A DNA stretch of 64,000 nt from positions 15,888,028 to 15,952,027 of the forward strand of contig OZ020519.1 in NCBI GenBank assembly GCA_963971425.1. The letters are read 5' to 3'. The notes beneath the pieces are model-generated. The model saw nothing but the letters and a program-made list of their open reading frames with translations. It had not been told where the DNA came from and ran no database searches. Shown here one piece after another: positions 3,050 to 30,561 of the stretch. The stretch's first letter is position 1. Each line of letters opens with the position of its first letter. The DNA is from Bryoerythrophyllum caledonicum (lineage: Eukaryota > Streptophyta > Bryopsida > Pottiales > Pottiaceae). The position numbers were made by a program, and so were the translations under genes.

Positions 3050-3390
3050 GCAATTCTTAGGTAAGTATCCACACAACTGCCAACTTTGATACCTTTTTGA
3101 GGGCTTGAAAATTGTTATTTTACCATAAAATTTTAGACACAAAATCATCTTTATGTTGAAAACATGTGTATAAAATTTCAAGGCCAAGAGATTTATACAA
3201 AAAATGATATTCAAGGTTTACCAAGAAGTGGTAGTTGTGAGAAAAGTTTCACAAGTGCCAACTTTGACAGCCTCCCAAGGGTAGAAGAATTTTTCTTTTC
3301 CATGGAATTTTTGGAATGGAAACACTTTTATGTTAATTACACATGTGAAAAATTCAAGTCCAAAAGAACCCTTCTCAGGTAGAGAGGAGC
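3050..3390 (+). repeat. Two tandem units of a ~175 bp repeat
   Basis: Two successive units share blocks such as CAACTTTGA, TTATGTTGA or TTATGTTAA followed by ACATGTG, and AAATTTCAAG. The same unit occurs at 5540-5760 in the same orientation and at 6040-6480 in inverted orientation. A peptide read from it looks similar between copies, but only because the DNA is repeated. I treat it as non-coding transposon-arm sequence. Confidence 0.6.
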
Positions 3391-3832
3391 GCACTTTGAG
3401 AACATACGAAGTATCTAGCTGCGACTTTTAATAGTCTGCTATGGAGTTTTGTCAAATCTTGTAATCTTCTGTCTTCAGTCTTCAAACTCCTCCCCGTTGG
3501 TCTATTGTGTGGTGGCTCTAAAGGGTTAAAGGTAAGAGTGGGTGATAAGAAACCACGTCCTTGGACGAGCTAACCGTCTGAAAAATTGGCTCCTAAACTT
3601 CAAACCGACGGTGACGAGCAATCGTGCCTCACCGGTGGAAACAACATAGAAGATCAAACATGTGGGTGATCAATCTCACTTCGTTGCCACAAATATTAAA
3701 AAATGGGGCTAATAAAAAATAATCACATAACGCGCAACAGTGTTTACGATGCAAAAAATGAAAAATAACAAAAGACAACGAGCCTCCAAAGTTGGCTGGG
3801 TATAACAAAGCCACAACACACGAGTTTTCAAT

Positions 3833-3905
3833 CTTCAAGCTTCAAGCTTCAAGTGTTCAAGTGTTCAAGTGTTCAAGTGTTCAAGTCTTCAAAGTCTTCA
3901 AGAAT
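3833..3905. repeat. TTCAAG(TG) minisatellite
   Basis: Short tandem repeats of TTCAAGC and TTCAAGTG run head to tail across about 70 bp, followed by two slightly altered TCTTCAA units. Confidence 0.8.
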
Positions 3906-4963
3906 TGAAAAGAAACTCAACTCTACACTCATCCTAACCACATTCTACACGAAATAAGAAGGTAACATACCCTCTTTTGCTTCTCAACTTATAAAATTTG
4001 CAATTCTTCTTTAAATTTAGAAGTTGATAGCTTTCTGGAAATCTAACAAAATTTCCTAACTTTTTTGAAAAATTTCACTTCCAGAAAATTTTCCAAGAAA
4101 TACTCATAGCTCTACAAAGTTACGGGTTTCAAAAGAAAGAGGCAACAAACCTATCCCTAATCAAGAACCCATAACTTTTTTTCCACAACTCCAATTAACT
4201 TAAATGATAAGTTTTTAAAAAGCTAAGAAATTATTCTACAACGGCTGAAATTTCCAAAGAAAGACGCAAAAACTACAAACTTTTGTGGTCGCCCGAATCT
4301 CTGCTCCTCTTCGTTGGGTGGCAGCAAACCCTCATCCACTCATACGCTTGTAATTTTTTGTCAACAGCTCTAAATCAAGAAAAAAAGATTTTTATGAAAG
4401 CGCATTTCAGAGAAAAAAAAATCTATAAAATTTCATTCAACAATATTTTTTATAACCAGAGTTATAACCGATCAAACTTACGGCTCTCTACACCCACACA
4501 TTCACTCCAAAAGCACACTTACTCATTTTTCCCTAAAAAATCTGTCTAACAGGGAGAGAGAAGATGCCTACCTACCCTCTAGATCTCTAAGGTAGATGAA
4601 ATCAGCTCATGTGCATCTCACATGGGCCTCATAAAAACCATTGGCCCAAGGAATACTCCAAAAGGTAAGACATACTTATTTTTTAAGGTCAACAAGCCTG
4701 TAGAGTTCTAACCAGGAGATAAATTAACCTCTATCTATCATCTTTTAAATTCTAACATTCAAATGGAATACAAAATACTTACATTCAGTTCAAAGCTTCA
4801 ATAAAAATTGAGTAAAGGTGAAAACTGAAGTAAAAAAAGAGTGTTACTCCATCTGCAAGAACTTGAGGATGCGTTTGATAGTGATTGCGATGTAATCTAT
4901 ACGTTGACTATTTGTTAAAGGATTCACTGGCCCTTTTAACCAACGATGGTGGCCAGCGCTTAC

Positions 4964-5281
4964 CTCAATTGGCCTAGGTATGCAAAAATAATGGTCTTCG
5001 TTCACGCCCTCAAAACTTCCTTCAAATGTCACTTCACGAGTGTCCGGTTCAATACATTCAGTTTGAAGTAAGATTACTAAAACACGAACGTCCCTTTGAA
5101 GATTAACATGCCAATGCCGCTAAACACGAGGCTGATTGAGCGAACAAAAATATTCAACTTCATCTTGTGGGTGAAATGACAATGGTGTGGAAACCGCCGG
5201 CTGAGATGATTGAATTGGCAACTAAGAAAAGGAAAGCTCTAATTCTACCTCCGGTTCAGACTCTAGATCTTGTGACTCCAT
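4964..5281 (-). pseudogene. Possible relic coding exon, unknown protein
   Basis: Reading the minus strand from an ATG at 5281, a frame of 106 codons runs to a good splice-donor context (GAG followed by GTAAGC) at 4964/4963. It contains two in-frame stops, both TAG. Its composition is less AT-biased than its flanks and the start is acidic (MESQDLESEPEVELEL). The frame continues open for a few codons past the donor, so splicing is not proven. I do not recognise the protein. It could be a decayed exon of a host gene or of a transposon. Confidence 0.3.
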
Positions 5282-5539
5282 AAAAACCCTCCAGTTCAAC
5301 ATTTTACAGTTCGAACTTCAAATTCAAACACAAAGTCTAAGAACGTAAAGGAATACTTCAAATTGGTGAATATTATTTACGGCTTTCGCCTTTTAAACAG
5401 TTCTATGAGCAATAAGCGTCACCTTGAAGCTATTGGAAGCGTCACCAATAAGTTTCGTCCTCCTAATCAAAGATATTTTTAAAATGTAAACAAGTATATG
5501 TTTTACACACTGTAAATATTTACATCAAGACACCGCAAA

Positions 5540-6240
5540 AAAAATGATACTCCAAATCTACCAACATGGGTAGTTGTGAGAAACAAAGGGAAAAATTGAT
5601 TAACAACTTCCAACTTTGACAACCTTCCTAGGGTTGAGAATTTTTTATTTCAACATGCATTTTTTTCCACAAGATCATTGTTATGTTGATAAGATGTGGA
5701 AAAAATTTCAAGGCAAAAAGATATACACATAAATAGTTATTCAAACTTATTCAAAACTTCTAATGTTGTTAAACCTAAGGTTTTGTTAGCCTAGTTGAAG
5801 AAAGTCTAACATATTTCAGATGGCAATTTCAGATGAAATTAGTAGACATATTATGGTATGAGTGAGGGAGGGAGTATTCAAATTCAAAGTGCAGCCACTT
5901 TTGGCGTTTCCTTGAGAACAATTCAGAGGTTGGTAAAAAAATTTAGAGAAGATGGAACTTACAAGCACGAACCTTGTGGTGGAAGTCACACTACAAAACT
6001 TAGTGATAAGATGTGCGTCGTGTTTTGAATAACTATTTTTGAGTACATCATATGGCCTTGAAAATTTTTACACATGTTATCAACATAACAATGATCTCGT
6101 GAAAAAAATTCATGTTGAAATAAAAAATTCTCAGCCCCAAGGAGGTTGTCAAAGTTGGAAGTTGTGAATCAATTTTCCCCTTTGTTCCTCACAACTGCAC
6201 ATGTTGATAGATTTGGAATATCATTTTTTTGTGGGTCTTT
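5540..6240. mobile_element. Relic DNA transposon with long inverted arms
   Basis: The arm at about 5540-5760 and the arm at about 6040-6240 are inverted copies. Shared blocks include CAACTTTGACAACCTTCC in the left arm and its complement in the right arm, and a block around TTATGTTGATAA. The 280 bp between the arms contains a helix-turn-helix reading frame like those at transposase N-termini. Further inverted unit copies extend to about 6480. Exact termini and target duplication could not be placed. Confidence 0.5.
5858..6028 (+). pseudogene. Transposase N-terminal HTH fragment
   Basis: A 56-codon frame lies between the inverted arms. The core reads SAATFGVSLRTIQRLVKKF, the pattern of a helix-turn-helix where a GVS turn is followed by a T-I-Q-R recognition helix, typical of Tc1/mariner-like and related transposases. 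A second start-like segment just upstream (MAISDEISRHIMV) is in another frame, so a small deletion has probably broken the N-terminus. Nothing of a catalytic domain follows. It is best read as the stub of the transposase that once mobilised the flanking inverted arms. A fragment of an unrelated HTH protein cannot be excluded. Confidence 0.5.
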
Positions 6241-6559
6241 TGGACTTGAATTTTTCACATGTGTAATTAACATAAAAGTGTTTCCACTCCCAAAATTCCA
6301 TGGAAAAATAAATTCTTCAACCCTTGGGAGGATGTCAAAGTTAGCACTTCTGAAACTTTTCTCAGATCTACGACTTGTTGGTGAATCTTGAATATCATTT
6401 TTTGTATAAATATCCTGGCCTTTAAATTTGGTATACATGTTCTCATTATAATGTATGCTTTTGCGAGTCATTTGGATTATTAACCATGGTGTACAACCTG
6501 ACAAAGAAGAAGAAGAAAAACTTCGGTCTCTAAAGGAGATTCTCTCAAGGATAAACACT

Positions 6560-6790: not shown

Positions 6791-7162
6791 TCATCTATCT
6801 AAGAATCAAATATGCATGGTTAATAATCCATGTCAAATATTAATCCTCAAAATTCCTTGACTAATTTCTCTACAGAATAAAACACTCAAAAATGTATTTG
6901 TTTGTGGCATGGAGGGGAAAGAAACAAAAATGTTTTTTTTCTTAGGGACGGTTTCTACACTATGGACCAAGAACTCGTCCCATGACCTTAAATTTGTGAT
7001 TGGCTCCATCAACTCGTCCCGGGATGACTTGGGTTTACACTAGGAGGAAAAAAGAAAAGTGACCAAAGGAGTTGAGGTCCTCAAAAGGCCTAGAAATAGG
7101 CCTGATGGATAATGTTGGAGGGTCCCCCGAATTTTGCGGCGAGAGAGGCTAAATGGGTTCTC

Positions 7163-7626
7163 TGTCGTGTAAAGAAAGATCGATAACCACAACAGATCGG
7201 GAGTCTTAACCAACATCAAATAAACGAAAAACATACACTAAAACAAGTATACGTAATACACCCTCAAGGAATCACATGTGTTTTCTACAAGAAGTCAAGC
7301 GACACGCACTCTACAAGGGGAGAATCAACGAGTGCAACTAAAGTAGAGAATGCGGAGCTTTCACTAATGATAAACCATCACTTACAAGCAAAGAACTCAC
7401 TAATCACTCTCTAACTTTACTCACAAAGCTTGACTTGACAAAGACGTCAAGTCAAGGACGTGTGCGGCGCTATACGCACACGCAAACAACCCTAAGTGGA
7501 TGAAAATCATCCACGGATGAAAACGGTGCGCCGCCGTTCGTCCCTAAACACACGTAGATTAGTAACAAACTAATCTACGCTAAAATCTACGATACGGAGA
7601 GACCCTCGACGCCACGTCCCGTGACA
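7163..7626 (-). repeat. Full-length LTR (464 bp), gypsy-1
   Basis: Begins TGTCGTG and ends CGTGACA, giving TG...CA ends with a short imperfect inverted repeat TGTC/GACA. It can be divided into part Y (7163-7268, 106 bp) and part X (7269-7626, 358 bp), which recur separately elsewhere in the element. A diverged stand-alone unit with the same ends at 17869-18329 supports this being the natural LTR unit. Confidence 0.85.
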
Positions 7627-7734: not shown

Positions 7735-8049
7735 TGCCCCCTCTAGCGGATAAAGAGACCCTCTATCCAGCTAGGACCAAACAACACTAATAAGACTAAA
7801 CGCCACGTTGATGTCGCTGCAACAACTGTACGCATCGAGCCAAAGATGTCGCCGTCGTTGAATCAATAAGCATATGAAGAAGTAACAAAGAGATGGTAGG
7901 CCGGGTGCAATGTGAGCCCCATCTTTAATCGCCTTAGGCAATTTTGTTGCCAATCCCTTGGTCAATCTCCACGTTGCCTATCCCTGAATCGAAACCAGCA
8001 ACTCCAATTGGATGGCAACGCACCACACAATGACAAGTCCACTAGGAAT

Positions 8050-8310
8050 TCAAGCCGTTTCATTGGGTGAAACGTGACTCGAAAACCTCCGACAACGAGG
8101 GCAAGTCCAATCCTCGAACGGTAGAGTAGAGAGAGGCGGTATCAAGCAAGCCATATGCCAACCACGATGGCAATGGTCACAAAGCAACATAGTAGCCGCA
8201 CCCTTCTTCTCACCACACACAAAACACGGAAGACCCTGTGGCACAACGGCCAACTCAGGATGCACGGAGCCATCAATGGGCAAATGGCAGGGCGCGCAGT
8301 TCTTGGAGTG
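8050..8310 (-). pseudogene. PHD finger at the C-terminus of gypsy-1 pol
   Basis: This continues the integrase frame after a single TAG at 8311-8313. The segment opens with HSKNCAPCHLPIDG, then has a complete C4HC3 PHD zinc finger. Numbering from the codon at 8283, the ligands are Cys20, Cys23, Cys35, Cys38, His43, Cys46, Cys61 and Cys64, with the conserved Trp (EDW) just before the last pair. PHD fingers commonly bind histone H3 tails, so here it may steer integration or methylation to particular chromatin, much as the chromodomain does in chromoviruses. That role is inference. The frame ends with TGA at 8050-8052. It is separated from integrase by one stop but shows no other damage. Confidence 0.85.
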
Positions 8311-9384
8311 CTATCGACACTCCCGGCCATCTTTGCCTTCCAGCAACAAGATGCCACTCGGCAACACATCCTTCACACGAAGAATGGTGCGCCCGGCCTT
8401 GACGTCTAACGTCGTAGGCGCCTCACGTTGCAAATAAACGTAATCTCCAGTGGAAAAACGCCGCAATTGAGGTCGATAAGCGCCGCTGCGAATGCGAGCG
8501 TACCGTAACATGTCGCGATGTTGAGCGATAGATAAATTCTCCATGGCCATTGGCATGGCCCGCTTGAAGAACTCCGCCCGATCACGCAGACACTGGATCC
8601 AGACCTCTGGATCATCCAAGTCCACAACTGGGGCCAACTTCTCCCGTATAGAACTGGGTAGAATCGGCTCCCGTCCGTACAACAACTGATACGGACTGAA
8701 AGCGGCCAAAGAGGCCTGTCGGCTAAACCGGTATCCCATGGCGATCCATGGTATCATCAGATCCCAATCACGGTGGCCACCCTGAAGTAATCCATACTTC
8801 CGTAGTCCACGCTTGACAGTCTGAACCACACGCTCTGCCAAACCGTCTGCTTCCGGATGATCCCGAGAAGTGGTACGGTGGTCAATCAAAGCCTTGGTGC
8901 ACAAAGCCTGGAAAGCATCAAGGAACTCACGCCCTTGGTCAGTCAACACCTCAGCTGGGGCTCCAAAACGAGCGAGCACCCGGTCAAGAAATGCCATGGC
9001 CGCCAACTCCGAGGAGTTCTGTGGTAGTGCCACAAGCTCAATCCACTTGCTGAAGTGCTCCACCATCACCAACACGTACTTGGCTCCACGAGGGGTGACA
9101 ACAAGTGGCCCGACAAAATCCAGAGACCAACGGTAGCCCAAACCCATGATGGGCAAATGCTGCAACTGTGGTGACAAGGTGTTGAAGCTGGATCTGACCC
9201 GATCACAGACTTCACACCGTGAAACGTACGTGGCAACCTGCTGATATATGCCGGTCCACCAATATTGACTGCGCAACATCGAATGAGTCCGTCGGACGCC
9301 AAAATGACCAAGGTCTTTGCGTACCTGCCATACCAACGAAGCCCTCTGATCCGGTCTCGGAACTATGCGCCTAGTTCCATCCGG
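8311..9384 (-). pseudogene. Integrase of gypsy-1
   Basis: Ty3/gypsy integrase, which inserts the cDNA copy into host DNA. An HHCC-type zinc-binding segment is present (LGHFG, then CEVCDR). The position where the first His is normally found reads Arg in QVRKDLGHFG, possibly a damaging change. The catalytic triad is D73 (SLDFVGP), D133 (LTDQGREF) and E168 (GLAERV), numbered from the codon at 9336, giving the D,D(35)E spacing of the family. A GPY-like C-terminal part follows and leads into the PHD finger. The frame is the same as RNase H upstream, from which it is separated by a TAG at 9385-9387. Confidence 0.9.
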
Positions 9385-10311
9385 CTACAACCGAAATAGA
9401 AGGCCGTTCTCCCAACGGAACCTCGCTATCCGGTGTCCAACTCGATGGCGCTCCATGGCTGAAAGAGCGGACGGAAGTGTGCCATGTTGCAGCTTGTGCA
9501 AGACTGGAACGTCTTTCCACACGTCGCTAACAACCTCGGCCTTGTCCGGTTCCTCATCCGCTGCCATATCAGGCAACCCCGATGTGGATCCGGACATCAA
9601 TGTGAGGTAGGCTGCTGCATGCCACCCCGGGACTGACTCCTTGTCACAGTCCCCATGCCACCTGACACCAGTCAAATCCTCCTCCGATGGACTTGGATTG
9701 CGAGATAGACCATCCGCATCCAAGTTCGTGATGCCCGCTCGGTGTACAACCTCAAAATCATACTCCTGGAGCAACAAAGCCCACCTGGCAAGCTTGCCAG
9801 TAAGCTTGTCAGACTCCATGAGCCACTTCAAAGGCTGGTGGTCGGTCACCAAAGTAAAACGCTGCCCATACAAGTAGGGTCTAAAATGAGCTATGGCCCA
9901 AACCGCGGCCAAGGCCTCTCCCTTATAGGACGAATAGTTGGACTCCGCGTTGTTGTTGCTCCTAGAAGCAAACGCCACAACGTACTCCCGTCCCTCATCA
10001 TCCTTTTGAGTCAACACGGCTCCCAATCCTACCGCACTCCAATCTGTGTGCAAGTGGAAAGGTCGTGTAGCATCTGGACGCCGCAATACAGGCGCTGAAC
10101 CGAGCTTCAGCTTCAAAGTAGCAAACGCCTGCTGCTGCTCCCGTCCCCAAGTCCATGGCTGATCCTTCCCCGTGAGAATAGTCAACGGCTTGGCAATCAA
10201 GCTGAAGTTCTTGACAAACCGGCGATAGTAATTCGCCAAGCCAAGAAAAGCTCTGAGCCGTGACACGTCAATTGGGGCTGGGATCTTCTGCAGCGCGTCA
10301 ACCTTCGCCTA
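9385..10311 (-). pseudogene. RNase H and connection domain of gypsy-1
   Basis: The segment opens with the connection motif of Ty3/gypsy pol (LRAFLGLANYYRRFVKNFS). RNase H follows, with its acidic active-site positions in HTDWSAVGLGAVL, YKGEALAAVWA, LVTDHQPLKWL and NLDADGLSR. RNase H removes the RNA strand of the RNA:DNA hybrid during cDNA synthesis. It is in frame with the reverse transcriptase, separated by two consecutive TAG codons at 10309-10314, and with integrase, separated by one TAG at 9385-9387. No frameshift is apparent, so these stops look like point changes. Confidence 0.9.
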
Positions 10312-11193
10312 CTACACGCCAAGACCTCCTGGAACAATCATATGTCCCAAGTATGGCAACCGGTCATGGAAGAATTTGCATTTGCCATGGTGCAAGCGCA
10401 ATCCCCACTGCCGTAGCCTCTCGAACACCGCCTGAAGATGTCTCACATGCTCCTGTGGGCTGCTACCAAAAATGATAACATCATCAATATAGCATCGGGC
10501 AAACGGTAAACCGGTCAACACCCGGTCCATCACCCTTTGAAACTCAGCGGGTGCGTTCTTGAGGCCAAATGGAAGAAAATTCCAATGGTAGAGCTGATCT
10601 CTCCCATCCAGATCAACTCCCCAAAATGCGGTCTTCACCCGGTCTTCCACCATCAATGGTAACTGGTAGTAACCGGACCGCAAATCCAGAGTACTAAATA
10701 CTCTGGCGTGTCCCACCGCATCAAACAACTCCTCTGGCGTGGGCATGGGATATCGATCCGACTTGGTCTTGCGATTGACCGGTCTATAATCCCCACACAT
10801 CCGCTTCTCCGTCCAATTGCCAAAGATGTCCTTCTTTGATGGCATCACCGTGGCACAAGCGTACTCGCCGTTGAAGAGCTCAATCAAACTGGCGGCCAAT
10901 AACTCCTGACAACGAGTCTGAACCCTAACTTTCTCAGAGAGACTGAGCTTGTACGGTCGTCGAAAGATCGGGTGGTCATCCTCCAACTGAATGTGAATTG
11001 GTTTGCCTCTATAGCCCTCCAAATCATGGAGACTAAAGGCAAAACAACTACGATACGAACGTATAAACGCTCGTACCCTTCGTGCCTCGGCACCAATAAG
11101 ATGTGGCCCCAAGTCCAGAGGCCAATCATCAAACTCCGTGGTCTCCTTCTCCACCGTAGAAGACTCACCGCGTATCGGCACGGCCGGTGATTG
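10312..11193 (-). pseudogene. Reverse transcriptase of gypsy-1
   Basis: Reverse transcriptase palm and fingers are complete. Numbered from the codon at 11181, they include FSTLDLRSGYYQ (about 162-173) with the first catalytic Asp, FLPFGLKNAPAEFQ (about 202-215), and CYIDDVIIF with the YIDD active site at 231-234. The frame is continuous with the methyltransferase upstream across one TAG at 11194-11196, so enzyme and methyltransferase were once one polyprotein. It ends at the paired TAG codons at 10309-10314 just before the connection domain. No internal stop or frameshift is visible in the domain itself. Confidence 0.92.
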
Positions 11194-12720
11194 CTACTTG
11201 GTAGCAGAGAGGGCATTAATGCCCTCAGACCCCTCACTCACAGGATCTACAGAAAATCCCGTGTCGTGATGATAAAACTGGGAAAAGATATCCCGAGCAT
11301 CATCACGGCCAAAGTCCTCTGCCAAGGCTGCAAAGACACACTGAGCACGAAGCTCCTCAGTTGCATGCCTCTTCAAACAAAAAAGCAACTCCGCTTCCTC
11401 GATCTCTGTGAGATGTGGCACTGCTGCCCCCTGACCATCAGAGTCTGCCCCCAGCACGCGTGGATGGTCACTCGAACGGCGTTGAGCAGCGAAACAGAGG
11501 CCACATATCCAAACAAGGGTGTTGAGGTCAATGGCTTGACCCAACAAATAACGGCGCTGGCCCTCAGAAAGATCCGGTGCGGCGGTGGTGCCTGTCAAAA
11601 AGCCCATTGCCTGCTCCCTCTCATCGGCAGAAGGCTCCTCGTAAGTTTGGGAAGAAGTATCCCAAACCATGCCGGGACCACGTGTCCTGAAGGCAAAAGA
11701 GCCCGGATAGCACATCAAGGTGGGAAATGCCCCCGGAGTGAAACCAACCCAGTTGACCACCGCCAATGGTGGCTCATCCTCCTTGGTAACCTCCGTGGAT
11801 ACGCGGTGGTCATCCAAAATGTCATCGACCTGACGGCGCACGGGCCTTTTCACTTGAGCAAGTGCAGAAGTGAGCGTCGTGGATGATGCCATGTTGGTCC
11901 AAATCCAACGTGGCCGATGGGCGTAAGATCCCAACGCCGCAGCATCAACAAACGTAGGGGGACCAAGAAGGTGATGGATGTACGCCCCATCCTCACGCAC
12001 CTTCGTCCGTGTATCCCCCAATGGGGGTACATTCTCAAAAATGTACCCCGGTGGTGTAGATTGGTGGGTAATCCACCACTGGACGAGCCTGAGCAAATCC
12101 GCAAAGAGACCCGACCGTGGATCATCCAAGCCACGTCCACTGCCCGCCCGTAAATGGCCTTGGCAAGGCCATCCGGCAATCACCAAGTCCACGTGACCTA
12201 ACCGGCGAAGATCATCCTCACTGATCAACGTCACATCACGTGGCAACTTGCTAAAACACCCTCGAATCGCAGAAGATGGTAACTGCTCTGGATACAACGC
12301 CAGAAGACGCTGAATGTGATGGTGAGCGGCACGGTTGGCTGCAAAGCTACTATCCACCTGGATATATCGTCGTACCTTGAGCCCGGCCTCCAACACAGCC
12401 GTGAGCCCCGTACCGATACCGGCAAATAACTCCACAAAGGTAATACCCTCATCCGGTGGTCGCCACTGAATAGTACGAGTCAACAACGGAGTGGAAGAGT
12501 CCATTGAAGGCAGTGGAGCATCAAGAGCATCCACGATCTCTCCACTCCGACGAGTGAGCTCCAACGGTGTCCCCCACGGCGGAAGCGGATCCTTGCAATG
12601 ACGGGCAGGGATCGCCAATGGTGGGTGCTCGCGTGAATCCTCTACTGCAGACATAAATGCATGTCTCCTCCAAAAGTGAAGAAGCACACGGCAAGTCTGA
12701 TGCCAGAGCACTGCACCCAA
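11194..12720 (-). CDS. C5 cytosine DNA methyltransferase domain in pol
   Basis: A 508-residue frame with the canonical order of cytosine-5 methyltransferase motifs. Motif I (AdoMet binding) is FAGIGTG at 99-105. Motif IV is GWPCQGH at 183-189 with catalytic Cys186. Motif VI is ENV at 229-231 with the catalytic Glu. Motif VIII is HRPRW near 268-272, an MGF-containing motif IX-like stretch lies near 372, and motif X is LLGQAIDLNTL near 392-402. All key residues are present and the frame has no internal stop, unlike the rest of the element. The likely reaction is transfer of methyl from S-adenosylmethionine to cytosine C5. It sits between protease and reverse transcriptase, in frame with the latter. 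The start given is the open-frame limit; the natural protein is probably released from a polyprotein. Target site preference is not readable from sequence. Confidence 0.93.
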   Translation of the reverse strand: MGAVLWHQTCRVLLHFWRRHAFMSAVEDSREHPPLAIPARHCKDPLPPWGTPLELTRRSGEIVDALDAPLPSMDSSTPLLTRTIQWRPPDEGITFVELFAGIGTGLTAVLEAGLKVRRYIQVDSSFAANRAAHHHIQRLLALYPEQLPSSAIRGCFSKLPRDVTLISEDDLRRLGHVDLVIAGWPCQGHLRAGSGRGLDDPRSGLFADLLRLVQWWITHQSTPPGYIFENVPPLGDTRTKVREDGAYIHHLLGPPTFVDAAALGSYAHRPRWIWTNMASSTTLTSALAQVKRPVRRQVDDILDDHRVSTEVTKEDEPPLAVVNWVGFTPGAFPTLMCYPGSFAFRTRGPGMVWDTSSQTYEEPSADEREQAMGFLTGTTAAPDLSEGQRRYLLGQAIDLNTLVWICGLCFAAQRRSSDHPRVLGADSDGQGAAVPHLTEIEEAELLFCLKRHATEELRAQCVFAALAEDFGRDDARDIFSQFYHHDTGFSVDPVSEGSEGINALSATK

Positions 12721-12721
12721 A

Positions 12722-15238
12722 CATAGCGTCTGTCGTTGAAGTCACCGCGCTAGCTGCGAAGATTACGGGGATGAGCTCCTTTCTGCCATCACCGGCAGAC
12801 CACCCTGGCCTAATCCAGGCCTCCTCCGTCTAGTTATCCATACTAAATCCAAGTGGATATAGTGCTTTCTGGCCCACCAAAATATCGTAGTTGGTGGCGC
12901 CAGTAACAGCGCACTGAAGAGAGACATGGGAGAACAACGAATCAGATCCCACGCCAAACATCAACTACAACGGATGTCGGGTGTAGCCCATGGCCTTCTC
13001 CGTGCCCCCAACTGATGTAACAATCGTGAATGGACAAGGCTCGAGGTCCAAAGCACCTAGACCCAAATCTTGGGCTAGCTGCTTACCAATCATCACTGGC
13101 TGAGCTCCGGAGTCTAACATAACACGAAGGGGGGTAGCTCGAGTGGGGTTGCCGTCCGTACGACCAACCACCATGACTCCGTTATCGTTTACCAAACGCA
13201 CCACCCCTGGACGCACACTGCATCGCTCCCGTGCTGACCGAGCTGCAACGTCAGACAAATAAGCCACTCCAGAGATCAAGGCCCGATCCTCAGACGACTG
13301 CTCCATAGGTGTGGAAGTGGCATTGGCCTCAAATGCGGAAATAGCCTCCGCCGCCAACTTGGCCCGCATTGCCACCAAATCCCCCTCAGTGGGTGGAGCG
13401 GTCACTGCCTGTGACACCTCCAATGACGAAATGGGCACCTTGCCTTCCAACATACTACCCGCCAAGTGGAAAACACCGGATGGTTGAAAATCCGGTGTGA
13501 GAAAGTCCACACCAGCAAACACCGGCAATTGCAACACCTTATACGCCAAGGTGTGTGCAACATCTCCAGGACTGGAAAAAACCGGTGGGACCGGAATCGA
13601 AGTGGGAGCGGCACTAGAAGTAGCCGCATCCGCGATGCTAAACGAAAGAGGTAGCCGGGACTGACCAATGTGGTCCAGCAAACCCGCATGGCGTGAACGG
13701 CCGCTACTACCCGGCACAGTGGAAGGGGGTGCCACCGCCTGTGTAATGGTCTGAGCACGAGTGGCAACCGCTGCCACCACCTCCCCCGTAGCGCCATACA
13801 AGTAGTGATCTAAGGGTGAAGATGAGCCCTGACCCGTCACCACAGGCTGTGTGTCTGCTACTTGCTCCAAAGAAGCCATCGCGCTCATCTGCTTCTTCAA
13901 CTCCGCTAATTCAGATTGAAGTGACTTCACGGCATCCGATCCAACAGCCGAAGATCCTGGGCGCTTCTCCGGGTGAAGAGAAAAGCAGTTCTCATCATTG
14001 TGGCCAGGCTTGCCACGGTGAGAGCATGTCACAGGCTTCTTCCCCTTGCTCCCAGTCTTCTCCGTAAGCTTGGCCGCCTCGGTCTTGGGCTTGGCCTTCC
14101 TCGCCACTCCCTCCTTCTTCTTCGGACAATTGGGGTCCTCCTTGGTGTGACCGGCCTCTTCACAAGCCCAACAATACACTACCTTTTCAGGTTGTGCTTC
14201 TGCCAAGCTACCAGTCGCCGTAGCAAGCTTCTTGGGCTTCGGAGCATCCATGAGCGACGTGACCAAGTCTGTGGCCTCGCTCACACCCAATGCCCGGTCA
14301 AGCGCTTCCACCTCGGCGAACGCCTGAGCCAAGGTCGCATTGCCGTGGTACCGGAAGAGCAAATGCGGACTGATCAACTCTACCATCCGCTTGTCGAGCT
14401 TGGAGATAAAAATCTTCACAAGTTGGCGCTCCGTGAAGACATCACTAGCCTCCGCCGCCAACCGTGCCAACCGTGTGTACATGGTGCGTGGCGTCTCTTC
14501 CTTCTCACGGCGGAAGTCCTGGATGCGGTGCATCTGATCGCGCCGAAACCCCCCGCACTCCACCTCCAGATGCGCCATGAACTGCGCCAGAGGATCGAAG
14601 GCTGGCGAGTTGCCAACCGCCACCAATGCCGCACGTGTGGCTACGGCGAAACGAGACATGGCCCTCATGCCAGCTCGTTCGCCTACAATGGCAACACCCT
14701 TGCCCTTGGAGTCCGCACCGAGGAAACTCTCCTCCTCCATGGGCTCCTCGGTGGAAGTCGAGAGTTGGGCAACCGCACTCTCCTTGAGTGCAGTGACCAA
14801 CTCCACATGCTGGCGCCAATACTCCTCAACCGGGCGCAACTCTGCCTCGTGCTGCGTGGTCCACCTCCCATATGTCTGAAGTGCCTCCAGCTCCAAATGC
14901 TGGGGCAAAAGCTCGAACGCGTACCAATCGTTGAACGACGGCGTCCGCTGGCGCTTCTCCTTCATCCAAGTTTGGAATCGGAGACGCCAATCGGGTAGGG
15001 AGATGCCCCCAGCCCGTCCCGAGAACCTGTCTCGCACGACATGACGGTGATCGTCCTCCATGTCGTCAAACGTGCCCACACTCCAGACCCGAAGCCTACG
15101 GTCGGTATCCAAGGCCGAAACAGGCTCAAAAGCCTCGTCGGTATCCGACCCTGGCCCAAAGTCTGTGGTGGAAGCACTCTCCGAGTGGTTTGGTGAGGGA
15201 GAACGGTAATACCGACTCCGGGTACTCACCATAAACAA
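12722..15238 (-). pseudogene. Gag and aspartic protease of gypsy-1
   Basis: A long frame of 757 residues from ATG at 15238, then a TAG at 12965-12967, continuing in frame to a second TAG at 12830-12832 and beyond to about 12722. The Gag part has a retrotransposon capsid-like region (about 50-320). A CCHC zinc knuckle follows (Cys356, Cys359, His364, Cys371). A second knuckle has lost its second Cys (CSHRGKPGHNDENC, Arg at that position). A short coiled-coil-like stretch lies near 437-456. The protease active site is LDSGA at 708-712. The post-stop segment includes NYDILVGQKAL, normal for the protease C-terminus. The frame differs from the methyltransferase frame, so a frameshift lies near 12.65-12.75 kb; whether programmed or mutational is unknown. 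Confidence 0.88.
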
Positions 15239-16453
15239 AAACCACCTCCGGATCTATCTACGGGTACTATCTAAAGGGTAAGGGTACGAACGGGCAACCT
15301 GCACCTGCAAAATCACCAAGCTGTGTGGATCACCGGTCATCACCTCCGGCTACCACATGTACAACCACATCCCCCTACATAGAAAGGTCTTGCCGGCCAT
15401 AAATCCGACTTCACCCCTACGGTACCCTATCACAAACTGGAACAACATGAAATGTGGCCACCGGAAAACACCGGCAACAAGCCCGCAACACGGGGGAGGT
15501 ACCGCATAAGAATCCAGAAATCAAAACCGGTTCCTCTCCCCCAACAACATAAAAGCAGGAAAATGAAAGAGACAGCGCCACTGGCACACGCCTGCAGTAG
15601 ATGCCTCAAAGTCGCAAAACCTGCAAATCAAAGAGAAACACCGCAAGATGTTCCTCCAATGTCTAAAAACTAAGGAGGTAATAGAATCCTATGGTCACGG
15701 TGTTCAAAAACACTAGTCCCCCAACGAAATTCAAACCATGGGAGACAAACGTGCCAAAACGTCAATCCAATACTAGAATTGGATAAATGACGAGATTCCT
15801 TAACTATAAACGCAAGTTTCACTCAAAACTAGAGTAAAAATGCACTAGCTAATTACCTCCGAAGTTAGACACTAAACACTACTTTTTTTTTTATAGGTCA
15901 CATAAACATGTGATTGTTTTGAAGACACCTAAAAAATGTCGGGTTTTGAAAGTCCTACAAACCTAAATTTTACTACACCATAAGGCTTATAATTCCTCTG
16001 CAAACTCAAATCCGCAATCGGAATCCAGAAATAATCAAAATTGCAAAAGTTAAAATTTTGATGTTTTGGTCCAGGGATGTGCTGAAATTTCAGCCCAAAA
16101 GTGACGGTTTTAGGAACTTCGACACGGTTTAGGGTCCCTAACGGAAATACATACCCAACGGATTTGCGACCCAGCGGATGAAAACTACCGCAGTGGATGA
16201 AAAACCACCGTGGATGAAAAATCGCGCGGCGGATGAAAAATTCGCACAGCAGGTCCAGAAGCTGATCCACCTTGCTCCAATCTTCTACCGCTCACAACTT
16301 CTTCAAAAATTGTCCAAATTGCACGCCGTTTGTCGCATTAGCTTCCTCTAAACGCGCTCTACGACATCATGCTAAGTACCCATAAGTTTTTCTCACAATT
16401 TCTAGCTCCATAAAACGAGATCTAATTGTAGAAAATGGAGGTCTTTGTCAAGT
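15239..16453 (-). other. Gypsy-1 5' leader, no gene seen
   Basis: About 1.2 kb lies between part X of the terminal repeat and the gag start. No protein domain is recognised. Four copies of GGATGAAAA lie around 16170-16245, echoing similar text inside the LTR. A standard tRNA primer-binding site starting TGG is not visible next to part X, which is odd for an LTR retrotransposon. Confidence 0.6.
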
Positions 16454-16811
16454 GAATCACATGTATTTTCCACAAGAAGTCAAGCGACACGCACTCCACA
16501 AGGGGAGAATCAACGAGTGCAACTAATGTAGAGAATGCGGAGCTTTCACTAATGATAAACCATCACTTACAAGCAAAGAACTCACTAATCACTCTCTAAC
16601 CTTACTCGCAAAGCTTGACTTGACAATGACGTCAAGTCAAGGACGTGTGCGGCGCTATACGCACACGCAAACAACCCTAAGTGGATGAAAATCATCCACG
16701 GATGAAAACGGTGCGCCGCCGTTCGTCCCTAAACACACGTAGATTAGTAACAAACTAATCTACGCTAAAATCTACGATATGGAGAGACCCTCGACGCCAC
16801 GTCTCGTGACA
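16454..16811 (-). repeat. Isolated LTR part X (358 bp)
   Basis: This matches 7269-7626 over the same 358 bp with few differences and ends CGTGACA. The expected part Y is absent from its left side. Instead the internal domain abuts, with TCAAG at 16448-16452 matching TCAAG at 7730-7734 on the far side. Confidence 0.85.
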
Positions 16812-17204
16812 TCTCTCGTTGGTGAAACGAGGAGACCCTGGGCCTGAAATGCTGTTTTATTATTTTTAAATTGATTTTTTTTTTGGTTTTTGAGAGGGGG
16901 CTCAACGTTACTATAGATACAATGGCGGCCACCCTTTTTGTCTTTATGGCTTGTTTTATTTTCATTGTTATTTTAGGAAATAGTGCCATTTTTAGGCATT
17001 CATTAAAAAAATCAGCACGCCCACTTTTTAGTACATGGTCATTCCTCCCGGTCCAAGTTCAGCTTACACTTAGTGAGAGGCCCAAGGGTTTTAAAAATGA
17101 CATTTTTATGAAGTGTGACCATGGAAGTGTGACCATGAAGTGTGACCATGGAATTAATCCATTTTCCTTGGTCACGGTTCTTGGTCTATAGTGTAAACCG
17201 CCCC

Positions 17205-17868
17205 TTTGCTACCTTTTAATGCAGGATCTTACTCTACATCATGAAAAAAGCATACAATACCTTTCATTCACTAGTAAGACTGGACTTTCCAAAGAATATC
17301 ATATAAAATTAACAATCAATATTCATGAACTTCTAAGAATATCAAATTCCAACAATTTTTTTTAAAACAAGAACATAATTAAAAATATGCTTTAAAACTT
17401 GAGATGACAAAATTGTGGGAAAATTGATGAGAAAATTGATCTCAAAATGTATAAATAGTCTTCAAGTTAACTCAAGATTGACTTGCAAAAGTACTAACAA
17501 TCATTAATATTCAAAGCCACTTTCATGGAAATCTAAAAATCACAAAGTTTATGTTGTGAATATGTTTTATAAGTTCACAAACTTCAATGCAAATTTTCAT
17601 TATAATATTTTAGATAAGTTTCAAGAAACCCTACAAGAATATAATTTTATGTAAAAGATTAATTGAATTGTACATCCTAAATGATAAAGTCCCAAGGTGG
17701 GCTTTTTTAAATCTTGGGCATGTTCCCATGGATGCAGTTTATGTTTACAATTCTTGAATTTTTTTTCAAAGATGTGAGAAGACAAGAGGACATGGTGATA
17801 TAAATTTTATTCTCATTGACCCTCTTGGAAATAGTTATGCCATCTTAAATAAAAACATCTAAAGTGGC
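17205..17868. other. AT-rich DNA, no feature seen
   Basis: No gene, RNA or repeat could be supported here. Confidence 0.5.
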
Positions 17869-18329
17869 TGTCGTGCAAAGGAAGATCGCTAAACTCAATA
17901 GATCAAGAACCACAACCAACACCATAAAAGCAAGAAACATACCTAAAGACAAGTATGATTAGTACACCCTCGAGAATAGAGATGCGAATTACTCACAAAG
18001 TCTAGCATCTTGCACTCCACAAGGAGAGAATCATCAAATCCAAGTAGATTAGAAAGCGGGACGTCTTTACTAATGAGAACCCATCACTTAAAAGTAAGAC
18101 AATCACTAACCACTCTCTAAATATACTTTCAAAATTAGACTTGACAAAAGATGTCAAGTTAAAGACGCACACGCACTAGACTTAAATCCTATGCGGATGA
18201 AAGTCATCATCCGGATGAATGTGGTAAATAGGCCCCATGTCCCACACATACACACTCGTAGATAACTACAACTAGTCTATAGGTGCAACTAAAGACGTGG
18301 TGGGGCCCCCAATGCCACATCCCATGACA
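17869..18329 (-). repeat. Solo LTR related to gypsy-1
   Basis: The unit begins TGTCGTG and ends CATGACA. It follows the gypsy-1 LTR along its whole length in the same order (parts Y then X), with clear divergence. There is no internal domain or second LTR beside it and no matching target duplication, so it is an old solo LTR or a remnant of a related family. Confidence 0.75.
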
Positions 18330-19269: not shown

Positions 19270-20733
19270 AAGGTGGAGGTAGTGGAAGTCTTTAACTGCA
19301 TGAGACGCATTTCGTAAATTTTCCACCGCTTTCCAGGAATTTTTTTCTGGACCGTAGCCCTCCCATCATCCATGATATTGTAGATTTTTCCAACGACCAT
19401 GAAGCCGAGAATCTAATACTGCATGCACCTTCCATTGAATATCTCTTTGTGGCATTACAATTAGAGGAGGTGGTTGGTGCTGGCGGCGTTCAATAGTGTC
19501 TTAAATATATCTTTGAAGTAGAGACACATGGAACACGTCATGATTGCAAAGATGTCACGGTAACTTTAGCATGTAAACCACCTCCAATAACTTAGTTGTA
19601 ATAGAAAAAGGTCCTAGAAATTTTGATGCTAATTTCTTGGAGGGTGTTGTGGTAGAAATTTTGTTGTGGCAAAGGAATACTTTGTCACCGATCTTGAAGT
19701 TCGGTTGTAATTGTACACCTTGGTCATAATATCGCTTTGCCCGATTATCTGCAATATCAATCATGGTTTTCACCTCATCGTGGACCTCTTGTAGATGTTT
19801 AATCCTTAGTTTTGTTGCTGAGACTGTGGAACTTGTCGGGGTTGTGAATGATAATGACGAGTGGTAGCCGTATGTAGCATAAAACACTAAAAATCTGGTT
19901 GCCAGATGTTTTGAGTTGTTAAACACAAATTCTGCTAAGGGTAAGAGATCCACCCAATCATTTTGTTGATGTGTTGTAAACATACGCAAAAATTGCTCCA
20001 ATATTTGGTTGATTCTCTCTATTTGGCCGTTTGATTGAGGATGGACCGCCGTCATTGTTGATGGTTGAATACATAGAAGTTGGCATAGGCATTTCGTAAA
20101 CTTTGAAACAAACACGGCGCCATGATCGGATATTATTTCTTGAGGTGTTCCATGAAGTTTCCAAACATAATATAAATATAATGTTGCGGTGGCATTAGCA
20201 CCAATTGATTCATTTGTGGGGATGAAGTGAGCTAGTTTTGTGTTTTTATCCACCAACACTAAAATGGAGTCGTGTCCTTTAGTTTTGGATAGCTTTACGA
20301 TAAAATCAATTGTAACGCGTTTCCATGGGGACTTAGCAGCAGGTATTGGTTGTAATAACCCATAACGAGCGTGATGTGTCGGCTTAGAACGTTGGCACAC
20401 GTTGCATCCATCAATGTATCGATGAACATATCGGCACAATGTTGGCCAGTAAAAATCTCCCGCCACCAAATCTAGCGTCTTTGCTTGTCCTTGATGTCTT
20501 GCTGCTGGCGCATCATGCCTCGATCGCACGATATGTCTCCGGAGTTCTTCATCATTTGGGACAATTGTAGTATCCTCAAATCGTAGGAGTCCATCCTTAA
20601 AACCATAGGCTTTAAAACGACGTCGAACATCTGCGGATGCCATTTTTGGATTATTTTTAAAAAAATGCCAAGATTGGCTTGAGTTTGACGTCCTCCCAAA
20701 CAAGGGCCTTAATATGGTCCAAGATGTGTGCAT
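19270..20733 (-). pseudogene. Integrase with C-terminal chromodomain, gypsy-2
   Basis: A 392-residue frame contains the zinc-binding segment (ending CNVCQRSK), the catalytic core with the first Asp in WKRVTIDFI, the second in IISDHGAVF and the Glu in NGQIERINQ, then the GPF/Y-type C-terminus (KFLGPFSI). It stops at 19555. Beyond it, still on the minus strand, decayed reading shows a chromodomain. An HVSLLQ-like link is followed by EGYGPEKNSW and AVENLRNA, interrupted by stops. Chromodomains guide chromovirus integration to marked heterochromatin. The N-terminal tail of the frame joins RNase H sequence in another frame. This contrasts with gypsy-1, which carries a PHD finger in the comparable position. 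Confidence 0.88.
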
Positions 20734-20839
20734 CTATCCAGACTGAGGTCACGGCTTCTAGTGTTGCTAATCTAAGCAATGTCTTGGAGTTGTTCTCTAG
20801 GCCGTCACTAACGTCCACTCGCCGTGAGAGGACGTCCAC

Positions 20840-21329
20840 TCTTTTGTTTAATGAAACAATTTTTGTGATCGGAGATTACATGCACATGGTGTGGAGATCC
20901 TTCTAAATAAACCCGCCAATATTTGAAATGCCAACACAATGCTTAAAAGTTCCTTATCATATATATCATAATTTTTCTTTGCCGGAATCATTTTAGAAGT
21001 TCGATATGCACAGGGGTGCAAGTGCCCATTTTCACCTTTTTGTGAAAGAATCCCACTAGTAGTTGTGTCTGATGCATCTGTCTCCACAACAAATGGTTGA
21101 TCGAATCTAGGATGGATCAATACTGGTGCTTGAAAAAAACGGGAGCGAAGATCTTTAATAGAGGTATCTACCATCGTTGTCAAGCCAAATCTTTGACCTT
21201 TTCCTATGGGCATATTTAGCAGAATTGCAATTCTTGAATAATTCTCTATAAACCGACGGTAGAAATTTAGGAATCCGAGAAATGCTTGAAGTTCTTTGAC
21301 CGTAGTTGGTGTTGGCCAGTCTTCAAGAA
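20840..21329 (-). pseudogene. RNase H and connection remnant, gypsy-2
   Basis: RNase H motifs are recognisable in ETDASDTTTSGILSQKG and AKKNYDIYDKELLSIVLAF. The connection segment upstream (ELQAFLGFLNFYRRFIENYS) is readable only in a different frame. Multiple frame changes and stops make it non-functional. It lies between the truncated reverse transcriptase and the integrase frame. Confidence 0.85.
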
Positions 21330-22511
21330 CTATGTATGAGTCTCGATGAAATTTGCACTTTCAAGCTTTAGCGTAAAGGCCGTGCTTGTGCAACCTCTGT
21401 AATACCTCTCAAACCACCTGTTGGTGTCAAGTTTTGTGAATATCTTGGCACCAGTCAACCGGTCAGTGAACTTTGGAATCAACGGCAACGGGTAGCGGTT
21501 CCGTACCATGACTATATTGAGATTCTGGTAATCCACACAAAATCGAATGGAACCGTCCTTCTTTTTAACAAAGACAATTGGGGCCGAATCGGGTGATTTC
21601 GATCGACGAATCCATCCTTTGCCTAAATTTTCTTCCAAATATCGTCAAATCTCCTCCAATTCCATTGAGAACATGGGTCGTAATCCTGTATTGCGAGGTT
21701 CTTGACCCTCCTTGAATTCAATTTTCATATCAGATGGTCCATGGTCTGGGAGCTCATTTAACACCTCTTCACTGAATGCTTTGTGCAAGTCCTTGTACTT
21801 GTTAGGAATTGATCCTACATCTATAGAGGAAAATTCGCAAATTTCCAAGGAATAGACCGCCGCCCATTTTGTTAACAACCAAAAAGCCGCCGACAATACT
21901 GGAACAGGTGTAGGAGGTGCCCATGACACGGCCGCTTGTGCCTTTCCTTGTTTGGAATTACCTGTAAAAGTTAGTTTATTTAAAGGTTGACATAATTTTG
22001 GAACTTCGATTTGTGGCCTTGTCATGACATAATTTGGAGTGTGGTCCTTAGATGGCGACAATAAACAAGTCTGTCGACAATAGGCGGATTCAAAGAACAC
22101 TTTCTTTGGGGACCACTTAATGGTAGGATCATGGCGGACTAACCACAGGGTGCCAACAATACAATGATAGCGCCCCGTGTTTGTGATATCTGCCACGAGT
22201 ATTTCACGGTGGTCTCCCACTACTAGTTTGACGGTTGCTTCTTGAGTGATGAGCCCTGAATTCATTATTCGGCCGTCGATGACTCAAACTTTTAGTAGGG
22301 TGGGTTTGACTTTGATGTCTCCCTTACATTCCTGAGCAAACTTGGAATGCATAAACACGCCGGTTGCATCGGAATCAACGAGGGTGATAGCTGACAATAA
22401 GTTTATTTGAAAATTTATGGTTAAATGTGTTTCTGGATTAATAGTGGCATGGATACATAAAGCTGTAGCACAATTTTTGTATTTATAAGGATCATTACGT
22501 TTTTCAATCAT
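21330..22511 (-). pseudogene. Protease and truncated reverse transcriptase, gypsy-2
   Basis: The protease segment (22284-22511) shows the aspartic protease site as VDSDATG, so the usual Gly of DSG is replaced by Asp. The reverse transcriptase begins near 21700 and shows [16 protein letters not shown] and [10 protein letters not shown] motifs, then TKLDTN. Immediately after that, the sequence jumps to the region that normally follows the YxDD box (readable in another frame as [13 protein letters not shown]). The catalytic YxDD block has been lost by an internal deletion. Two further frame breaks divide the segment at about 22270 and 21640. Confidence 0.85.
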
Positions 22512-22672
22512 TGCACATAGAGATGTTGTAACACGTGCGATCTTACTAGTGCATGGGCACTACCTCCCTGCCTTCAATCCCAGGCCATATCTTTCCCCAA
22601 TTCCTTTGATCCTCCTGCTTCTTCCGAAACTACCAACATGAGGGGTTTTGAAGGATTTGTGGGACACCTAGC

Positions 22673-23647
22673 TCAAATGTGCCCTTGTTTACTGCAACCC
22701 CAACACTTCCCTTGTGGTTGATACTCCACGCATTTGGCAGCTGTCCTTGCAAATGGAGGTGTGATATTGATGGCATCAAGCTCCATCAGGGTTGGCCATG
22801 ATGTGCCAGACGTGGCTTGGAATCGACTTATAAAATCTCTTGGGGTAGATGAGGTTCCTAGGCGTTGTTGATTTTGATGCCGTGACCATAACCGATCGTC
22901 AATGCGCGAGGTTGTTGCCATCGAGTCCTAAAGTCGATGAGGCTGCATTTCTGGGGTGGCTATGGAGTCAAGAATTTTGTCTTTGAGGCCTCCCCGGAAT
23001 CTTGCTATCAAACTTGACTCGTTCCAGTCCACCTGTGCTGCATTTTCATTAAACGTGGATATATAACCAGCAACTGACCTTGTTTGCTTAATCTTAGCAA
23101 GGCGGTCCTCTGCATTACTTCACCAGTCCATCTCTCCATAAACGACAACCATGGCTTCTCAAAACCTATTATAATTCACCAAAAGGTCGTGATGGCGTCC
23201 TTCATCCAACGCTTGCAAGAGAGGCATTGCCCAGTTTTGCGCGGCACCCATAGGTAGGAAAGTGCAAATGCAATTTTATCCTCATCACAATGATAATCAC
23301 GTGAATTACCTGGGAAACCAAGCAAAGCTGGCAAACCATTTGTACACCTCTCCTCCCTTCTTGTCGGAAAATTTCTTAGGCTTCACTACTCTCAACTCTT
23401 TGCTGCCAGCGTCGTCGCCATGATACTGGTTCGTCCCATGTGATGCTGGAGCAGCTGTCTGCATGACGATCGATTGGGAAATTGGAGGTGGTTGTACTGG
23501 GATTTGTTCCGATATTTGTTGTACAATATGTGGAATTGTTGCTTGGAAAATTGATTGAATTTGTTGTTGAATAAAAGCAGCCCATTTGGACCCCATCCCT
23601 CCTGGCATTGGCGGTCCTCTTTCTTCGGCGGGTCTTTTTTTATCCAT
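22673..23647 (-). pseudogene. Gag remnant of gypsy-2
   Basis: The start is a Met at 23647 followed by a 113-residue frame with a Gln/Pro-rich N-terminus and the capsid-type motif KPKKFSDKKGGEVYKWF. The rest of the capsid lies in broken frames. A second frame (22673-22921) ends in a zinc knuckle CWGCSKQGHI, where a TGA interrupts the CCHC motif before its last Cys. The 800 bp between this gene and the 5' LTR hold no recognisable domain. Confidence 0.82.
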
Positions 23648-29485: not shown

Positions 29486-30561
29486 TCATGATTCCTCACC
29501 TTCGTCTTCATCGGAGGGACAGTCCTTTATGTTGTAACGCTCGGAACCAAGGGGCTGCGCCACGCTCTCGAGAATCCTCTCGTCAAAATCCCTTCCCATG
29601 TTGAACCCAAACGCTGCAACAGATGCACCCTGAGAGCTAGAAGCCAACTGAACGACCATCGCCACGCCATCGGAATCCTCTTCGAAGGGCATCTCACACT
29701 CGTCGAGAGAGGAAGAATCCGCGGCAACCTCGTCTGCAGGGCGGGGCGGAAGAGGCGCGGCCTCGTGTGCGGGGCGCGGCGGAACAGGTGCGGCCTCGTG
29801 TACAGGGCGGGGCGGAACGGGTGCTACCTCCTCGTCCCCAATCCTGAGGAACCTGTTTCCCATCGCAATAAAGCCGGGGCTATCGATCACGTCCATCACC
29901 TCTTTTATAAAAGCTGCTCCCTCGTCACCGAAGTCCCTGCCAGCGATGGCTCGCACGTAGTCGGAGCGCTCCTCCGGGGTTGTGCGCTCCAGCGACTCGA
30001 GAGGCGGAAAAGTGAACGGCACCTCGACTCCATAGTGGCAGCGCTCCTTGCCGCAGTAGTGAAAGATCGCGTCCGCGACAAGCTTGGCAAACCCCGGGTG
30101 ACGGATCCTGCCCTTCCAGAACTTTTTTTTCCAATTTTGAGGACGGATTTCGACGTAGCAGGACTGCCCATTGCGAGCATATCGGACTCCTGGCCCCAGT
30201 GGTTCTCCACTGCCAAACCTAAAAACTGAAAATGTTCAAAAAGAATTCGATCCGGACTTTACATGCTTCTCAGATCTTCGCAGAACCAATTGAAGATAGA
30301 GGGTACTACTATAATTTCCACCTAAAATCAAAATAGCTGTACATAATCGCCACATATTAGCACCTCACATTTGAAACAATCGACAAGTCTAGGGGTAAGC
30401 TTCACTACTTTGCAGATACAATCCTTGTGCTACTTGTCTGTAAAAAATGTAAAACTTCTACTAAAGCAACTCCTTAGACAACCAAGAAAACTCCGGTTCA
30501 AGAAAACTCACGGCTGGGCCGCATAACGCTGGAGGTCGTCACGCACACGCTGGTGGTTCAT
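29486..30561 (-). CDS. AP2/ERF-like domain gene, copy A (two exons)
   Basis: Exon 1 is 30512-30561 (ATG at 30561, ending before GTGAGT) and exon 2 is 29486-30209 (after TTTGGCAG), together 257 residues. The splice phase joins correctly and is the same in copies B and C. The conserved N-terminal part reads GPGVRYA, then YVEIRPQ, FWKGRIRH, FAKLVADAIFHYCGK and FTFPPLESLER, which resembles the AP2/ERF DNA-binding pattern (GVR, EIR, W-G, A--AD, FP). A Pro-Arg-Pro repeat region and an acidic tail (ending DEDEGEES) follow. A transcription-factor role is inference from that resemblance. Exon 2 has no ATG before the domain, which supports the short first exon. No stop or frameshift was found. Confidence 0.62.

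Follow-up and report, generated by a model that had tools for sequence, protein, structure and literature searches.

Organization of the element

The window analyzed here is 64,000 nucleotides of the moss Bryoerythrophyllum caledonicum (contig OZ020519.1, positions 15,888,028 to 15,952,027), and it holds on its minus strand a retrotransposon running from 16811 down to 7163, with the ends TGTCACG...ACGACA. The element encodes Gag-protease-methyltransferase (MT), an in-frame UAG CAAUCA, and reverse transcriptase (RT)-RNase H-integrase-PHD finger, all within split direct repeats of the plan B-coding-A-B-A and flanked by 4-bp target duplications. L001 (CADCWO010000201.1), used for comparison below, is a relative with 88% identity whose contig was assigned to a cyanobacterial (Synechococcales) bin.

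16454..16811, minus: 5' terminal repeat B, beginning TGTCACG, 97% identical to internal B
15233..16453, minus: non-coding leader, from repeat B to the first ATG of the Gag frame
13136..15232, minus: Gag and spacer up to the protease, open frame, two zinc-knuckle-like motifs
12830..13135, minus: aspartic protease (Pfam PF13650, E 2.9e-4, under its curated cutoff; L001 alignment)
11479..12456, minus: DNMT3-type C5 cytosine methyltransferase domain, open in the window copy
11197..11478, minus: MT C-terminal tail, ending ...ALSATK (matching SATK/AATK ends in P0001-P0004, P0008 and P0079)
11188..11196, minus: in-frame TAG CAATCA between MT and RT
10336..10812, minus: reverse transcriptase (Pfam RVT_1, 2e-30; L001, 4e-31)
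9760..10149, minus: RNase H (Pfam RT_RNaseH, 8e-39)
8854..9354, minus: integrase, H2C2 zinc finger and rve core (Pfam, 8e-15 and 7e-16)
8092..8226, minus: PHD finger at the integrase C-terminus (equivalent in L001: Pfam PHD, 4e-10)
7737..7744, minus: polypurine tract AGAGGGGG, read from the sequence; a similar G-rich tract lies in L001
7628..7734, minus: internal repeat A, 95% identical to terminal A
7269..7626, minus: internal repeat B
7163..7268, minus: 3' terminal repeat A, element end ACGACA

The zinc knuckles of Gag are visible by reading the sequence, with no Pfam match for them. The 5' and internal B repeats differ at 9 of 358 positions, and GAGA stands directly outside both ends (16812-16815 and 7159-7162). 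To check the ends, we took pieces expected to contain them from six other genomic copies. Five of the six begin with B at the same start as the window, and repeat B was not found at the 5' end in the piece from the C11 copy. At the 3' end, the copies on C11, C6 and C14 have A-B-A, with partial alignment of the second A in C14; only one A is present in the C9 copy, the C4 piece begins within B and continues into A, and the C8 piece yielded no A. Duplications of 4 bp surround the TG...CA ends in four of the five copies with both ends read, window included (GAGA, AGGT, TCTA, TTTT); the C4 copy, also read at both ends, has none. The ends are therefore real, and the duplications are those expected of a DDE integrase, despite the DIRS-like repeats. 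The C9 copy (G000:C9:25234262-25244831; L059, L060) has a 5' B and only one 3' A, yet carries a 4-bp duplication, and its single A perhaps arose by recombination between two A repeats. About 1 kb upstream of the element lies an older relic, repeat B then A, at 17868-18167 on the minus strand (73% identical).

The methyltransferase is DNMT3-like

A first-pass annotation made from the sequence alone had proposed a Ty3/gypsy element carrying its own C5 methyltransferase, and this is borne out by the Pfam match (DNA_methylase, 1e-10), by sequence profile and predicted fold, and by 84 matches in the host genome. The family match is strong, and the closest solved relatives by both profile and predicted fold are DNMT3A and DNMT3B. 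All six motifs that had been named were located in canonical order, from 12432 to 11521:

12432-12406, minus: motif I
12171-12157, minus: motif IV (PCQ)
12039-12025, minus: motif VI (ENV)
11922-11905, minus: motif VIII
11628-11599, minus: motif IX-like
11541-11521, minus: motif X

The element enzyme shares with DNMT3A/3B the AHRxRxxWxN motif VIII and the same motif order, but identity over the fold is only about 23-25%, motif IV reads PCQG rather than PCND, and neither ADD nor PWWP is among the Pfam matches beside the MT; a PHD finger stands on the integrase instead. The unpermuted motif order rules out a DRM-type enzyme, and the best profile and fold match is DNMT3.

The reading frame lies on the minus strand, where it spans 515 codons (12741..11197) or, as first described, 508 codons (12720..11197), and the plus strand over it contains seven stops. 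Although the 508-codon frame is real, about its first 19 codons are not, because a small frameshift puts the sequence upstream of about 12663 out of register with relatives. The MT was rightly placed between protease and RT and in frame with RT, but a TAG at 11196 separates the two; as this stop is common to relatives, the MT belongs to the Gag-protease frame. The further claim that no other long part of pol is free of stops goes too far, since there are also open stretches of 293 codons in RT, 307 in RNase H and 357 in the integrase. The predicted PHD finger is present, identified by Pfam on its L001 equivalent.

Genomic copies and selective constraint

The MT of the window copy is open. Elsewhere, relative to L001, this copy has one small frameshift upstream of the MT and six additional in-frame stops: two fall in the protease, two lie side by side close to the junction of RT and RNase H, a fifth precedes the integrase and a sixth the PHD finger. 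L001 is open from within Gag across the MT to the TAG and again through the end of the PHD finger, with the MT in one frame with Gag-protease and RT across the TAG in the same frame. In the host genome (437 Mb, 894 contigs), the 84 scored MT matches, counting that of the window, came from 2800 first-look candidates and are 83-100% identical; 49 of them have no stop within the match and 35 do, and several genomic copies retain an open frame of 1353 residues.

Between the window and L001, dN/dS is 0.107 for the MT, 0.041 for RT-RNase H, 0.054 for the integrase and 0.11 for the PHD tail, the MT value being read with a dS that is biased low because L001 and the genomic copies were chosen by MT similarity. 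Pooled pN/pS is 0.37 for the MT and 0.17 for RT among 30 genomic copies, the best 30 of the 84 by MT score, and is raised by decaying copies. In an alignment of 180 rows, with seven bacterial rows kept apart, 142 of the 149 transposon rows that span the catalytic Cys column retain this residue, and 144 of the 157 that span the Glu column retain the catalytic Glu, so the loss of these residues from all copies, which would have spoken against the first-pass annotation, is not what we see. Purifying selection together with the retained catalytic residues argues for the MT being an active enzyme, as far as sequence can tell.

A conserved stop between methyltransferase and reverse transcriptase

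We compared the stop in 31 sequences: L001 and 30 genomic copies, one of which is the window copy. TAGCAATCA (TAG then CAATCA) is found in 29 of them, with one TAACAATCA and one TTGCAATCA. The junction matches the type I readthrough consensus, UAG CAR YYA, as stated in PMC3542737, and the random chance of the CARYYA hexamer class is 8/4096. Predicted metagenome MT proteins have matching C-terminal ends inside several subclades, and 11 of the 32 RT frames without an MT start 86-107 residues ahead of RT (110 in L001), while in P0100, P0145 and P0240 MT and RT share a single uninterrupted frame. We infer that in the window's clade the MT is translated at the level of Gag, with RT-integrase reached via readthrough.

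Relatives, two methyltransferase positions and trees

Protein searches extended the family beyond the moss. One gave 41 matches, seven of bacterial type; a second gave 177, and among the 120 of these listed and examined is a 329-residue MT annotated in the liverwort Calypogeia fissa (49% identity). The integrase-PHD query from L001 gave 306 matches, and the 120 listed and examined include two proteins of Haematococcus lacustris, in neither of which an MT was detected, and proteins of Volvox reticuliferus and Tetrabaena socialis, in both of which the MT is degenerate. In Volvox, Tetrabaena and the metagenome protein P0179, the motif IV Cys and the catalytic Glu are lost and the rest of the MT domain is retained. 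The volvocine-type proteins P0170, P0252 and P0179 carry such a domain, lacking catalytic Cys and Glu, ahead of the integrase. In P0174, P0180, P0192 and others with the MT between RNase H and integrase, EC replaces the near-universal PC of motif IV and the ENV Glu is kept. One protein named as a DNA cytosine methyltransferase of Candidatus Obscuribacterales (P0006) sits on a contig of the same element kind, and certain database entries for "bacterial" MTs look like contaminating retrotransposons, so that metagenome bins would owe some of their supposed bacterial methyltransferases to this family.

The PHD finger is present in 119 of 121 integrase proteins (the 120 of 306 listed plus L001), a count biased by a query that contained the finger. 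Its nearest solved relatives are those of CHD4, PHF12, KMT2D, UHRF1, KDM5A/B, PHF21A, ATXR5 and AIRE, several of which read the unmodified H3 tail.

Among the same 120 integrase proteins, 51 carry an MT, and its position varies. Three of the 51 have it ahead of RT; 25, in which RNase H is visible, have it between that domain and the integrase; and in the remaining 23 the MT is followed by the integrase, with RNase H undetected. The gap between RNase H and integrase measures 553-778 residues with an MT inside versus 102-333 without.

MT and integrase trees were quick searches with SH-aLRT support only. The MT tree comprises 100 MTs, 91 transposon rows plus the window among them, and was limited to rows with about 256 MT residues or more. 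It contains a second-position clade of 38 rows (36 of that type and 2 of unknown position; 98, starred), a window-type clade of 37 rows (98, starred) and a third clade of 13 (100, starred) made up of one protease-MT protein and 12 of unknown position. The transposon MTs and DNMT3A fall together against DNMT1, DNMT2, HhaI and four bacterial MTs (99, starred), a grouping to be read with a long-branch warning; DNMT3A is itself unplaced, on a very long branch. In the integrase tree (123 proteins), all 48 second-position proteins fall inside a 77-row clade (99, starred), and the window, L001, P0145 and P0240 are in another group of 37 rows (92, unstarred), with P0232 unplaced. Taken together, these groupings indicate that the two MT positions largely match two integrase groups.

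P0145 departs from this pattern. Its integrase lies within the window's 15-row clade (99, starred) and is 58% identical to that of the window, and its MT, ahead of RT, is very different, sitting on a long branch and belonging to none of the three MT clades. This conflict between placements opposes simple co-descent, so that the MT was either replaced or changed fast in P0145; the sequences hint at replacement within the group.

One possible but doubtful history is that this is a Ty3/gypsy group spanning the green lineage, in which a DNMT3-type MT was captured once, early, along with an H3-reading integrase PHD finger. The MT would then have moved between two positions, one before RT under dosage control by readthrough and one between RNase H and integrase, and would have become catalytically dead and DNMT3L-like in volvocine algae, with the Klebsormidium element described below as one leaf rather than an independent local capture. 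We hold this reading only tentatively because the branch joining the 92 transposon MTs has no support. If it is true, the chromatin-reader and methyltransferase logic of DNMT3 has been split over two arms of a polyprotein.

Comparison with known elements

The element kind is already known, from de Mendoza et al. 2018 (PMC5890265) and restated in PMC12344493, which names LTR Copia and DIRS families for these cases. KnitGypsy-Dnmt3 of Klebsormidium nitens is described in PMC5890265 as having Gypsy domains, a DNMT3-related MT in the polyprotein and DIRS-like repeats of the plan A-coding-B-A-B, with key residues retained and purifying selection. Going by that published description, the best explanation for the window element is a Ty3/gypsy retrotransposon of the same kind: the window and L001 share a Gypsy-type pol (RT-RNase H-DDE integrase, by Pfam) and a DNMT3-related MT in the polyprotein frame, and the window has split repeats of the same type (B...A-B-A). 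Unlike KnitGypsy-Dnmt3 as described, this element has its MT ahead of a UAG CAAUCA, together with Gag, and its integrase terminates in a PHD finger; neither "PHD" nor "readthrough" occurs in the main text of PMC5890265. The Gypsy case there comes from one alga, whereas the relatives here include a liverwort MT and volvocine elements. In the open-access titles and abstract openings that we searched, there was no description of a PHD finger, a readthrough stop or a second MT position in such elements, nor of liverwort or volvocine members.

SymbioDIRS-Dnmt3 and SymbioLINE-Dnmt of Symbiodinium, as presented in PMC5890265, are likewise retrotransposon-borne cytosine MTs, and the former also combines DNMT3 with split repeats, but they rely on a tyrosine recombinase and on LINE machinery, respectively, in contrast to the DDE integrase and 4-bp duplications found here. 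A SymbioDIRS-type element was ruled out, given the rve integrase, the 4-bp target duplications and the lack of a tyrosine recombinase among the Pfam matches. In that study two SymbioDIRS DNMT3s produced de novo CG methylation in yeast, and the Klebsormidium Gypsy MT gave no methylation, a result termed inconclusive there (PMC5890265).

Possible functions of the methyltransferase

Transposons are usually silenced by DNA methylation, and DNMT3 is the enzyme type by which animals and plants establish new methylation. That an element keeps its own de novo MT under selection, in green hosts and at two polyprotein positions, is thus a puzzle. Our main reading, which we consider about evenly balanced between right and wrong, is that in this KnitGypsy-kind element an MT made in Gag-like excess through UAG readthrough marks new copies, and the PHD finger guides insertion toward silent chromatin. 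Readthrough of the UAG by a small fraction of ribosomes would leave the MT in excess over RT and integrase and packaged with Gag. The DNMT3-type enzyme would add 5-methylcytosine de novo to new element DNA, either inside the particle or where the element inserts, and a PHD finger of a kind that recognizes the unmodified H3 tail may direct the integrase to silent, H3K4-unmethylated chromatin. New copies would arrive pre-marked, doing little harm and shielded from attack as unmarked DNA. Other relatives fuse MT and RT without a stop or carry the MT after RNase H, so an excess of MT is not a family-wide need. We found no methylation footprint: CG is not depleted (observed/expected 0.82 in the element versus 0.62 in the rest of the window), and singleton C-to-T changes exceed T-to-C (0.106 per site) but are nearly equal across CG (0.201), CHH (0.175) and CHG (0.166).

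The readthrough step could be questioned if the UAG were an ordinary frame end, with RT-INT-PHD expressed by re-initiation or from a spliced or separate mRNA and the stop context coincidental. RT frames of metagenome relatives are indeed predicted with their own start codons, conservation of the junction in 30 young copies partly reflects common descent, and RNA folds just past the stop have only modest stability (z -1.6 and -2.7), which we count against the main reading. However, the frame is identical on either side, the near-invariant junction falls in a rare hexamer class, and three relatives run uninterrupted from MT to RT, all of which makes an ordinary stop unlikely in our estimation. 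It also seems improbable, to a similar degree, that the MT acts in trans on the host genome, at insertion sites or on chromatin at large, rather than on its own cDNA, shifting the silencing landscape of the host in the element's favor. The presumed excess of MT and the chromatin contact suggested by the PHD finger would fit such a role, and host-wide effects of element MTs were proposed for Symbiodinium, but the methylome of Klebsormidium is described as land-plant-like despite such elements (both PMC5890265).

The absence of CG depletion would also suit an MT that is non-catalytic and, much as DNMT3L does for DNMT3A, serves the particle as a scaffold or as a module that binds DNA or RNA, or else an MT that acts on RNA. 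Retention of the domain without motif IV and catalytic Glu in Volvox, Tetrabaena and P0179, and the inactivity of the Klebsormidium enzyme in the yeast assay (PMC5890265), point the same way. Nevertheless, a pure scaffold does not need the catalytic Cys and Glu that nearly all rows keep, and with an MT dN/dS of 0.107 we regard this possibility as distinctly unlikely. Finally, decay of the window copy and the stops in 35 of the 84 scored MT matches could describe a functionless captured passenger retained only through the youth of the family, but an MT with its catalytic motifs persists in relatives of less than 40% identity and is under purifying selection, which makes a passenger highly improbable.

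The main reading, excess MT through readthrough, yields a concrete prediction from a stop common to the copies in a readthrough context, namely that MT exceeds RT. The catalytically dead volvocine versions are a natural test of catalytic versus structural roles, and related elements in green algae, environmental samples and a liverwort (MT only) offer a way to ask why mobile elements mark DNA.

Other features of the window

Other mobile sequences lie nearby. We take 19558-23647 (minus strand) to be another Gypsy element from reading its frames, with its RT and INT also supported by tblastn; by frame reading, 42185-47021 (plus strand) is presumably a Copia element and 40174-40906 (plus strand) presumably a Tc1/mariner-like transposase. 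Three related long frames of 249, 239 and 254 codons are repeated within the window on the minus strand (29489-30235, 38324-39040 and 59130-59891), and 3151-6451 holds long imperfect inverted repeats, with four arm pairs of 80-148 nt that are 86-94% complementary.
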